A DNA stretch of 10,913 nt from Paracoccaceae bacterium (lineage in GTDB: Bacteria; Pseudomonadota; Alphaproteobacteria; Rhodobacterales; Rhodobacteraceae). How positions within the stretch are numbered: the first letter of the stretch is position 1; each line of letters starts with the position of its first letter. Both the position numbers and the translations under genes were made by a program. Of the stretch, positions 4,785 through 6,304 are shown piece by piece. The DNA lies in the NCBI GenBank assembly GCA_023263735.1, contig JALQUQ010000033.1, positions 1 to 10,913 on the forward strand, in the 5' to 3' direction. Below the pieces are notes generated by a model. The model saw nothing but the letters and a program-made list of their open reading frames with translations. It was not told where the DNA came from and searched no databases.

Positions 4785-4813
4785 TTGACAGAGGAAAAAC
4801 CGCTCCGCATCCT
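4785..4813 (+). promoter_or_regulatory. Candidate sigma-70-type promoter of the nrtA-nasA operon
   Basis: A perfect TTGACA lies at 4785-4790. Seventeen bases later stands CATCCT (4808-4813), only a weak -10 match. A start site near 4820 would place the first ANTAR hairpin (from 4822) at the extreme 5' end of the transcript. The -35 element is convincing and the -10 is not. No sigma-54 (-24/-12) element was seen here. Confidence 0.4.
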
Positions 4814-4821
4814 GAACCCAA

Positions 4822-4862
4822 GACGGAACAATGGCGTTCCGTTCCATCCCCGACAGACCGGG
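4822..4862 (+). promoter_or_regulatory. ANTAR-target two-hairpin RNA motif in the nrtA leader (NasT binding site)
   Basis: Hairpin 1 has stem CGGAAC (4824-4829) with GTTCCG (4836-4841), extendable by A4823-T4842 and G4822-T4843, and loop AATGGC. Hairpin 2 has stem CCCG (4849-4852) with CGGG (4859-4862) and loop ACAGAC. Both loops are six bases long with A at position 1 and G at position 4, the defining signature of RNAs bound by ANTAR antiterminators. The pair lies between a candidate promoter and an intrinsic terminator, and nasT is in the same locus. I infer NasT binds here to allow read-through into nrtA. The second stem is short (four GC pairs), which suits a switch that is stabilised by protein. 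Confidence 0.75.
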
Positions 4863-4872
4863 ACTAAGGCAA

Positions 4873-4926
4873 GGCCGCCTGACCCACCGCATCCTCCCTG
4901 CGGTGAGCGTTAGCGGCCCTTTTTTT
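4873..4926 (+). terminator. Leader intrinsic terminator (attenuator) before nrtA
   Basis: An outer stem GGCCGC (4873-4878) with GCGGCC (4913-4918) and an inner stem CACCGCA (4885-4891) with TGCGGTG (4899-4905) are joined by an internal loop and capped by a seven-base loop. The structure is followed almost at once by seven Ts (4920-4926). It lies 10 bases after the ANTAR hairpins and just before the nrtA ribosome-binding site, and would stop transcription unless NasT intervenes. It could also reduce read-through from nasTS. Confidence 0.8.
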
Positions 4927-4936
4927 CATGGCAAAC

Positions 4937-4941
4937 AAGGA
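4937..4941 (+). promoter_or_regulatory. nrtA ribosome-binding site, decides the start
   Basis: AAGGA is seven bases upstream of ATG 4949. The earlier in-frame ATG at 4928 sits directly behind the terminator T-run with no Shine-Dalgarno and would put charged residues before the signal peptide, so 4949 is preferred. Confidence 0.75.
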
Positions 4942-4948
4942 AATAGAC

Positions 4949-6304
4949 ATGACACGTTGCGCTTTGATGCTGACCGCAGCTTTGCTGGCTCATCCGGCCT
5001 TTGCATTCACGGACAATGTCGAAACCGATGAATTGACCCTTGGTTTCATCAAATTGACCGACATGGCCCCGTTGGCGATTGCCAAGGAAAAAGGGTTTTT
5101 CGAAGACGAAGGCCTGTATGTCACGCTGGAGGCGCAATCGAACTGGAAGGTTCTGTTGGACCGCGTGATCGCCGGCGAATTGCAGGGCGCGCATATGCTG
5201 GCCGGTCAGCCCTTGGCCGCGACGATTGGCTACGGCACGGCGGGCGAGGTCATCACGCCGTTTTCCATGGACCTGAACGGCAATGCGATCACCGTCTCGA
5301 ATGCCGTTTGGGAAGAGATGAAGAAAAACGTGCCGATGGGCGCCGATGGCAAGCCGGTTCACCCGATTTCGGCCGCCGCGCTGAAGCCGGTGATCGAAAG
5401 CTACAAGGACAAGGGCCAACCGTTCAATCTCGGCATGGTGTTCCCGGTGTCGACCCATAACTATGAATTGCGCTATTGGCTGGCGGCGGGCGGGATCGCG
5501 CCGGGGTATTATACCCCCGACGATGTTTCGGGCCAGATCGCGGGCGATGTGCTGATCTCGGTCACGCCGCCCCCGCAAATGCCCGCCACGATGGAGGCCG
5601 GAACCATCCTTGGCTATGCCGTGGGCGAGCCGTGGAACCAAGCCGCCGTTGCCAAGGGGATCGGCGTACCGGTGATCACCGACCACGACATCTGGAATTA
5701 CAATCCGGAAAAGGTGTTTGGCGTGACCAAGGCCTTTGCCGATGCCAATCCGAACACGATGATTGCCCTGACCAAGGCCCTGATCCGCGCCGCGATCTGG
5801 CTGGATGAAAACGACAATGCCAACCGGGCCGAGGCCGTCGAAATCCTGTCCCGTGCGGAATATGTGGGCGCGGATGCGGGTGTCATTGCCAATTCGATGA
5901 CCGGAACCTTTGAGTTCGAACCGGGCGACAAGCGCGAAGCGGCCGATTTCAACGTGTTCTTCCGCCACAACGCGACCTTCCCCTATTACTCGGACGCGGT
6001 CTGGTATCTGACCCAGATGCGCCGTTGGGGCCAGATTTCCGAGGACAAGGCCGATGCGTGGTATGACGAAACCGCCAAATCGGTCTATCGCCCCGACATC
6101 TACAAACTGGCAGCGGAACAACTGATCGCCGAAGGCGTCGCGACGCCCGAGATGTTCGACTTTGACGCCGATGGCTACCGCGCGCCGACCAATGCCTTCC
6201 TTGATGGCATCACCTATGACGGCACCAAGCCGAACGCCTATATCGACAGCCTGCCCATCGGTCTGAAGACCGGTCAGACGGTCGAGGCGGCCATCTCCAA
6301 TTGA
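4949..6304 (+). CDS. nrtA: NrtA, periplasmic nitrate-binding protein of the ABC nitrate transporter
   Basis: From ATG 4949 the 451-residue product starts with a short Sec-type signal peptide, MTRCALMLTAALLAHPAFA, likely cleaved after AFA. There is no lipobox at the cleavage site, so it should be soluble in the periplasm rather than a lipoprotein as in cyanobacteria. The mature part is a CmpA/NrtA-family binding protein: LGFIKLTDMAPLAIAKEKGF at the first lobe, W66 in QSNWKVLL, H170 in FPVSTHNYELRYWL, AVGEPWNQ (about 224-231) and K255 in YNPEKVFG. From memory, Trp, His and Lys in these motifs contact nitrate in cyanobacterial NrtA. It would deliver nitrate (perhaps nitrite) to NrtB. It is the first gene after the NasT-controlled leader. 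Bicarbonate, as in CmpA, is a theoretical alternative, but the nas context argues for nitrate. Confidence 0.94.
   Translation: MTRCALMLTAALLAHPAFAFTDNVETDELTLGFIKLTDMAPLAIAKEKGFFEDEGLYVTLEAQSNWKVLLDRVIAGELQGAHMLAGQPLAATIGYGTAGEVITPFSMDLNGNAITVSNAVWEEMKKNVPMGADGKPVHPISAAALKPVIESYKDKGQPFNLGMVFPVSTHNYELRYWLAAGGIAPGYYTPDDVSGQIAGDVLISVTPPPQMPATMEAGTILGYAVGEPWNQAAVAKGIGVPVITDHDIWNYNPEKVFGVTKAFADANPNTMIALTKALIRAAIWLDENDNANRAEAVEILSRAEYVGADAGVIANSMTGTFEFEPGDKREAADFNVFFRHNATFPYYSDAVWYLTQMRRWGQISEDKADAWYDETAKSVYRPDIYKLAAEQLIAEGVATPEMFDFDADGYRAPTNAFLDGITYDGTKPNAYIDSLPIGLKTGQTVEAAISN

Follow-up and report, generated by a model that had tools for sequence, protein, structure and literature searches.

The leader between nasS and nrtA in the window, by which we mean the whole 10,913-nucleotide stretch of Paracoccaceae DNA that was analysed, is very probably a NasT-controlled transcription antitermination switch, in which three hairpins, P1, M and P2, stand in series ahead of an intrinsic terminator that shares bases with P2. 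The NasS-NasT system is known and the three-hairpin array is new. We found no description of a three-hairpin ANTAR target in the literature searched, most subscription journals lying outside that search. The features of the locus are as follows:

2978..3562, + strand: nasT, encoding a receiver-like plus ANTAR domain protein of 194 aa (Pfam ANTAR 79.9 bits, cut-off 27.3)
3562..4713, + strand: nasS, encoding a putative NrtA-like nitrate/nitrite sensor of 383 aa (Pfam NMT1_2)
4785..4790, + strand: -35-like sequence TTGACA
4808..4813, + strand: weak -10 sequence CATCCT, 17-nt spacer, three of six consensus letters
4822..4843, + strand: P1, 8-bp hairpin GACGGAAC(AATGGC)GTTCCGTT with hexaloop AATGGC, -11.0 kcal/mol
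4849..4862, + strand: M, middle hairpin CCCG(ACAGAC)CGGG, -5.1 kcal/mol, separated by 5 nt from P1 and by 4 nt from P2
4867..4880, + strand: P2, candidate antiterminator hairpin AGGC(AAGGCC)GCCT, -4.4 kcal/mol
4873..4926, + strand: intrinsic terminator, stem 4873-4918 and T7 run 4920-4926, with 4873-4880 common to P2
4937..4942, + strand: nrtA ribosome site AAGGAA, ahead of the ATG at 4949
4949..6304, + strand: nrtA, encoding a nitrate-binding protein

The gene order in the window is nasT, nasS, leader, nrtA, a permease gene, a gene for a two-domain ABC ATPase, a gene for an FAD oxidoreductase and the 5’ part of one for a nitrate reductase, and the pair that marks a NasS-NasT regulator, an ANTAR protein and an NrtA-like sensor, adjoins genes of nitrate assimilation. 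NasS is predicted to sense nitrate and nitrite by its kinship to NasS of P. denitrificans (PMC3795266). In the 100 family loci fetched nasS lies behind nasT, and an nrtA-like gene lies 3’ of nasS in 98 of them; the other two have neither nrtA nor a detected leader downstream. The nrtA product is 80-87% identical to those of L002-L008, its best relatives among the matches listed. A start for nrtA at 4928 was dropped, as it falls inside the T run, and the start at 4949, which has a ribosome site, is preferred. The nitrate transporter ATPases are a single 546-aa protein with two ABC domains (7487-9127).

NasT can be aligned to EutV (6wsh), Rv1626 (1s8n) and NasR (4akk), and seven of the eight residues with which EutV contacts RNA are identical in it: R143, K144, K150, E161, Y165, R169 and M173 of NasT correspond to R142, K143, K149, E160, Y164, R168 and M172 of EutV. 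The eighth, EutV K147, is replaced by R148.

A preliminary description of this DNA had placed the TTGACA element, two hairpins with AATGGC and ACAGAC loops, the terminator with its seven Ts and the nrtA ribosome site between nasT-nasS and nrtA, and all of these are found where it put them. Its reading of the region as a NasT-type antitermination leader adjoining nasT-nasS is also borne out by the presence of the ANTAR domain and by the conservation of gene order and hairpins. What has to be revised is the choice of AATGGC and ACAGAC as the operative pair: the ACAGAC hairpin, M, coexists with the terminator, and it is the AAGGCC hairpin at 4867-4880 that cannot form together with the terminator. 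The switch had been called complete when it was one hairpin short, P2 having been overlooked.

The folding of the leader separates the roles of the hairpins. The loop and 3’ arm of P2, from 4873 onward, form the start of the terminator stem, and P2 appears as a third hairpin in the fold of a transcript ending at 4882. When the transcript is grown in steps, P2 is in the minimum-energy fold for 3’ ends from 4880 to 4912 and the terminator takes over from 4913, which leaves about 33 nt of transcription during which a protein could hold P2. The full leader folds at -36.4 kcal/mol with P2 forced and at -46.0 kcal/mol when free. Because P1 and M both coexist with the terminator in the full minimum-energy fold, neither can be the antiterminator, and ACAGAC as antiterminator loop is ruled out, since M does not overlap the terminator. 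The antiterminator role fits P2, whose loop is the third one with A at position 1 and G at position 4 (an A1/G4 hexaloop) and which shares bases with the terminator. Three parts expected of an ANTAR-target leader are present: an upstream A1/G4 hexaloop (P1), an A1/G4 hexaloop overlapping the terminator (P2) and an intrinsic terminator downstream.

Positions 4815-4927 fold into P1, M and the terminator at -46 kcal/mol (z -4.5, none of 200 shuffles as low), mostly because of the terminator, which alone gives z -6.1 with none of 200 shuffles as low. By folding energy P1 and M alone hardly stand out (z -1.7, with 12 of 200 shuffles equally stable), so that the case for them rests on conservation. 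A scan for consensus promoters and terminators, with at least four of six letters required per hexamer, listed neither the TTGACA/CATCCT promoter nor the bulged terminator. Rfam covariance models, searched up to E 5, matched the window twice, both times outside the leader, and membership of an Rfam family was dropped. A promoter pair can be placed ahead of P1 in 88 of 99 leaders, and in 63 of those 88, as a raw count, 14-18 nt separate the end of its -10 element from the P1 loop. The sequence CCTCC, which resembles an anti-Shine-Dalgarno sequence, occurs in the terminator segment of 29 of 96 leaders where 10.6 are expected by mononucleotide shuffling, and the window is among them (CATCCTCCCTG, 4873-4919).

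Conservation was assessed on loci drawn from a genome scan for nrtA (27 loci) and from a NasT family search, which gave matches, many of them weak, in 187 of 295 genomes. Stretches 3’ of strong nasT matches (100), together with the window and L002-L010, made 110 leaders. P2 with an overlapping terminator was found in 103 of the 110, three of them duplicates, by a finder that accepted only loops closed by C-G and gave preference to A1/G4; placing P2 by hand in L150, L088, L110 and L123 and correcting L112 and L142 brought the set to 107 leaders, or 104 without the three duplicates. P1 was found in 99 of the 104 (missing in L086, L099, L134, L145 and L123). The leader alignment holds 94 of the 104, five being left out as belonging to another cluster type (L076, L078, L088, L110 and L123) and five as unclear (L099, L109, L134, L142 and L147).

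At the P1 loop, A1 is present in 92 of these 94 leaders and G4 in all 94, and the P2 loop has exactly the same counts. On four of the five measures used, the stems covary more than controls made by shuffling or sliding: among those compared with shuffled alignments, paired cells amount to 86.6% against 72.5%, the covariation score is 0.441 against 0.196 and two-sided changed cells number 253 against 93, none of 500 shuffles being as high in any of the three; the fifth measure, pairs changed on both sides, gives 12 against 10.1, with 21 of 500 as high. By hairpin, paired cells are 85.1% for P1, 79.3% for M and 94.7% for P2. The two inner pairs of P2 are invariant and the inner pairs of M nearly so, which makes them of little value for covariation; the pair counts of M are also lowered because M of the window’s clade sits one column off in the alignment. 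The window’s P2 stem has four pairs as against five in near kin, which, like the weak -10 and the unremarkable folding energy of P1 and M, counts against the switch. The preliminary description had proposed covariation analysis across related loci as a check; the stems as a whole do covary, and the inner pairs of M barely vary. Its expectation that both of its hexaloops are kept in close relatives holds for P1, by the counts above, and for ACAGAC in part: L002-L006 and L059 share with the window an exact A1/G4 hexaloop at M, whereas G4 has been lost in L060 (AAAATC) and L061 (ACAATC), which belong with the window to a well-supported group of 11 rows, and the loops of L007 and L008 are 8 nt long and contain no A1/G4 hexaloop.

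These data bear on the possibility that the terminator is a constitutive attenuator, the hairpins are no target of NasT and induction takes place at the promoter. The nas genes of P. denitrificans are reported to depend on NtrBC as well (PMC5424462), which would suit such an arrangement; against it stand the near-invariant A1/G4 letters, the bases that P2 and the terminator have in common, the adjacency of nasT-nasS across the family and the reported binding of P. denitrificans NasT to its leader (PMC3795266), and we regard it as very unlikely.

In the window’s genome (a draft, 86% complete) a covariance model derived from the alignment recovers the leader with an E value of 7e-8. It gives no second target there below E 2.5, five further matches having E values of 2.56 to 7.7, and a wider NasT regulon in this genome was rejected by this model, which could miss a two-hairpin target.

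Of 99 leaders, 96 have a middle hairpin of at most -2 kcal/mol in the P1-P2 interval, with a median linker of 11 nt from P1 and 5 nt to P2. The loops of P1 and P2 start 38-63 nt apart across leaders; between the loop starts of M and P2 the median distance is 20 nt, and in most leaders it is 18-23 nt, the usual one in dual-hexaloop targets. Exact A1/G4 hexaloops closed by at least four pairs occur in the P1-P2 linker of 18 of the 99 leaders (mean 2.0 and maximum 6 in 200 shuffles), and A1/G4 loops allowing one extra 3’ base in 38 of the 99 (3.8 in shuffled linkers). Loops of 6-8 nt at M (81 leaders) have G4 in 62, and A1 together with G4 in 38 as against 7.8 with shuffled letters. Several unlike leaders (L009/L093, L154 and L155) have the M loop GCTGCA.

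On the simplest reading the three hairpins would form an array and M would span the distance from P1 to P2, perhaps by binding NasT itself, a step that we propose tentatively. About as likely, and likewise short of probable, is that M is instead a structural spacer that folds the long linker and brings P1 and P2 close, its loop unread by any protein, NasT using P1 and P2 only. M loops vary from 5 to 8 nt and are often other than hexaloops, as a spacer would allow; A1, kept in 92 of 94 leaders at P1 and at P2, is found in 27 of the 41 leaders of the 7-nt loop class at M (CCC-7 nt-GGG; 16.2 expected from loop letters); the near relatives L060, L061, L007 and L008 lack G4 or the hexaloop; and the inner stem pairs of M show 1, 1 and 2 two-sided changes in the 94-leader alignment. 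A pure spacer, however, need not keep loop letters, and in the same 41 leaders G4 is present in 39 (8.0 expected) and A5 in 34 (16.3 expected). M is under a different or looser constraint than P1 and P2, since these keep A1 as well as G4. The published EutV structure has G4 stacking on Tyr164 and A1 without specific contact (PMC8934654), and the pattern at M, with G4 kept and A1 looser, matches these contacts.

The letters of the M loop are also its own, with C or T at position 6 in 37 of the 41 and hence G-A-Y at positions 4-6, where P2 loops mostly have C-C (82 and 88 of 94). This would suit a reading of M by a factor other than NasT, or a slowing of polymerase at M that gives NasT time to load. 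We found no candidate protein or pause signal for M, and the G-A-Y letters recur in the upstream loop of two-hairpin leaders at the same spacing (AGCGAC, AACGAC and AGTGAC); such a role for M seems improbable to us.

Those two-hairpin leaders come from a wider comparison. In a scan of 36 class-level loci for A1/G4 loops only, 19 have a hexaloop overlapping the terminator and a second one upstream, as a raw count in which some matches, e.g. L189, lie inside coding sequence. The upstream loop is 18 nt away and has M-like letters in L163, L169 and L170 (AGCGAT, AGCGAC and AACGAC), and two loops lie 19 nt apart in L022 and L023 (upstream AGTGAC and AAAGTC); the sole upstream loop of L169, L170, L022 and L023 is thus about as far from its partner as M is from P2, which argues against a pure spacer. 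In L016, L017, L021, L027 and L028 two loops, AATGGC, AACGGC or similar, are 26 nt apart, and L181 has three loops (AAAGTT, AAGGAC and AACGCT). The scan that gave the pairs 26 and 19 nt apart showed none in L011, L013, L018-L020, L025 and L026. The two-hairpin nitrate leaders of other Proteobacteria (L016, L017, L022 and L023) resemble the window in having A1/G4 loops closed by C-G, the second near the terminator, and differ from it in having two hairpins, 26 or 19 nt apart by loop, where the window has three. Comparison of these sequences leads us to infer that M may be the old partner of P2 at short spacing, P1 having been added to the pair. In the Alcanivorax leaders L014 and L024 an A1/G4 hexaloop, GGTC(AACGAT)GACC, caps the terminator stem. 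Sequences like the sigma-54 promoter, whose motif is TTGGCAC-N5-TTGC, stand ahead of the L014, L016, L169 and L170 leaders, where the window instead has a promoter of the TTGACA type.

Closer to the window, a second kind of nitrate cluster, outside the alignment, has A1/G4 at M in all 11 distinct leaders read (L076, L078, L088, L110, L123, L210-L213, L215 and L231; L123 lacks a clear P1), and Rhodobacter sp. CZR27 (L235) has AACGGC, AAGGAC and AATGAC in series. On a quick nrtA tree of 103 rows, which contains the long branch L144, with L123 added by hand and L151 left out as a broken hit, the exact M state (18 rows) needs seven changes, at least five of them forced by well-supported branches. 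Leaders of the window’s kind were found in none of 15 same-genus genomes searched, and 7 of these 15 show the different, second-kind leader in the family-model search; several further matches of that model in the genus (L214, L219, L221, L228, L232 and L233) were not leader-like on reading. The nearest nrtA kin of the window’s cluster are Rhodobacter sp. WM.3.37 and Gemmobacter, and these may represent the group from which the nitrate cluster was gained.

A close known counterpart is the P. denitrificans nasA leader, which has the same kind of regulator pair and is the same kind of leader as that in the window, the transporter gene there being nasA and not nrtA. Nitrate is reported to part NasS from NasT, NasT then binding the leader RNA (PMC3795266), and a hairpin mutation in the leader to block expression (PMC5424462). 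The published accounts, in the parts available, describe two hairpins, HI and HII, and nowhere three loops (PMC3795266, PMC5424462); HI and HII are not assignable to P1, M or P2 of the window; HII is reported as largely dispensable (PMC5424462), which would favour M as a spacer. Compared by loops and spacing alone, the P. denitrificans leader (L234) has three G4 hexaloops, AACGGC, AATGAT and GACGAT, 25 and 23 nt apart, and the family model gave no match in it up to E 0.1.

The EutV/eutP leader of E. faecalis shares with the window’s system the A1/G4 hexaloops, a second hairpin overlapping the terminator and the RNA-contact residues (PMC3369931, PMC8934654). P1 is reported there to recruit EutV and P2 to prevent termination, a longer linker abolishing activity, and EutV, unlike NasT, is switched by phosphorylation (PMC8934654, PMC3369931). 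The two eut hairpins lie 5-12 nt apart (PMC3369931), and linkers of 3 or 14 nt, or of 20 nt more, are reported to cut or abolish activity (PMC3369931, PMC8934654), whereas in the window a 23-nt stretch that contains a third hairpin separates P1 from P2. This distance is outside the eut range and inside the 2-25 nt reported between two hairpins in an actinobacterial survey (PMC8164766); neighbouring hairpins in the window are separated by 5 and 4 nt.

With nitrate release taken from the P. denitrificans work and G4 recognition from that on EutV, the leader would operate as follows. RNA would start just ahead of P1. When nitrate is absent, NasS would hold NasT, the terminator would displace P2 and transcription would end before nrtA. 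When nitrate or nitrite is present, NasT would be freed from NasS and would load onto the emerging RNA at P1 and probably also at M; by holding P2 while polymerase crosses the T run it would allow nrtA and the genes behind it to be transcribed. A further possibility, short of probable in our judgement, is a three-step ANTAR target, in which a NasT dimer would bind P1, M and P2 in turn, moving on whenever the next hairpin emerges from the polymerase; M would be the original partner of P2, and P1 an extra recruitment site. If this is true, the array would allow more time for capture or make the response to nitrate sharper, and would fit successive rather than simultaneous binding of the loops.

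Searches that assume exactly two hairpins can choose the wrong pair, as happened in the preliminary description of this leader. The finding also touches the open question of whether an ANTAR protein holds two loops at once or steps from loop to loop. The crystal-structure work proposes that one ANTAR dimer moves between loops and does not hold both (PMC8934654), and the eut work that P1 and P2 must be close (PMC8934654, PMC3369931). A naturally occurring leader whose distant P1 and P2 flank a third hairpin with G4 offers a direct test of both eut proximity and the loop-to-loop model.
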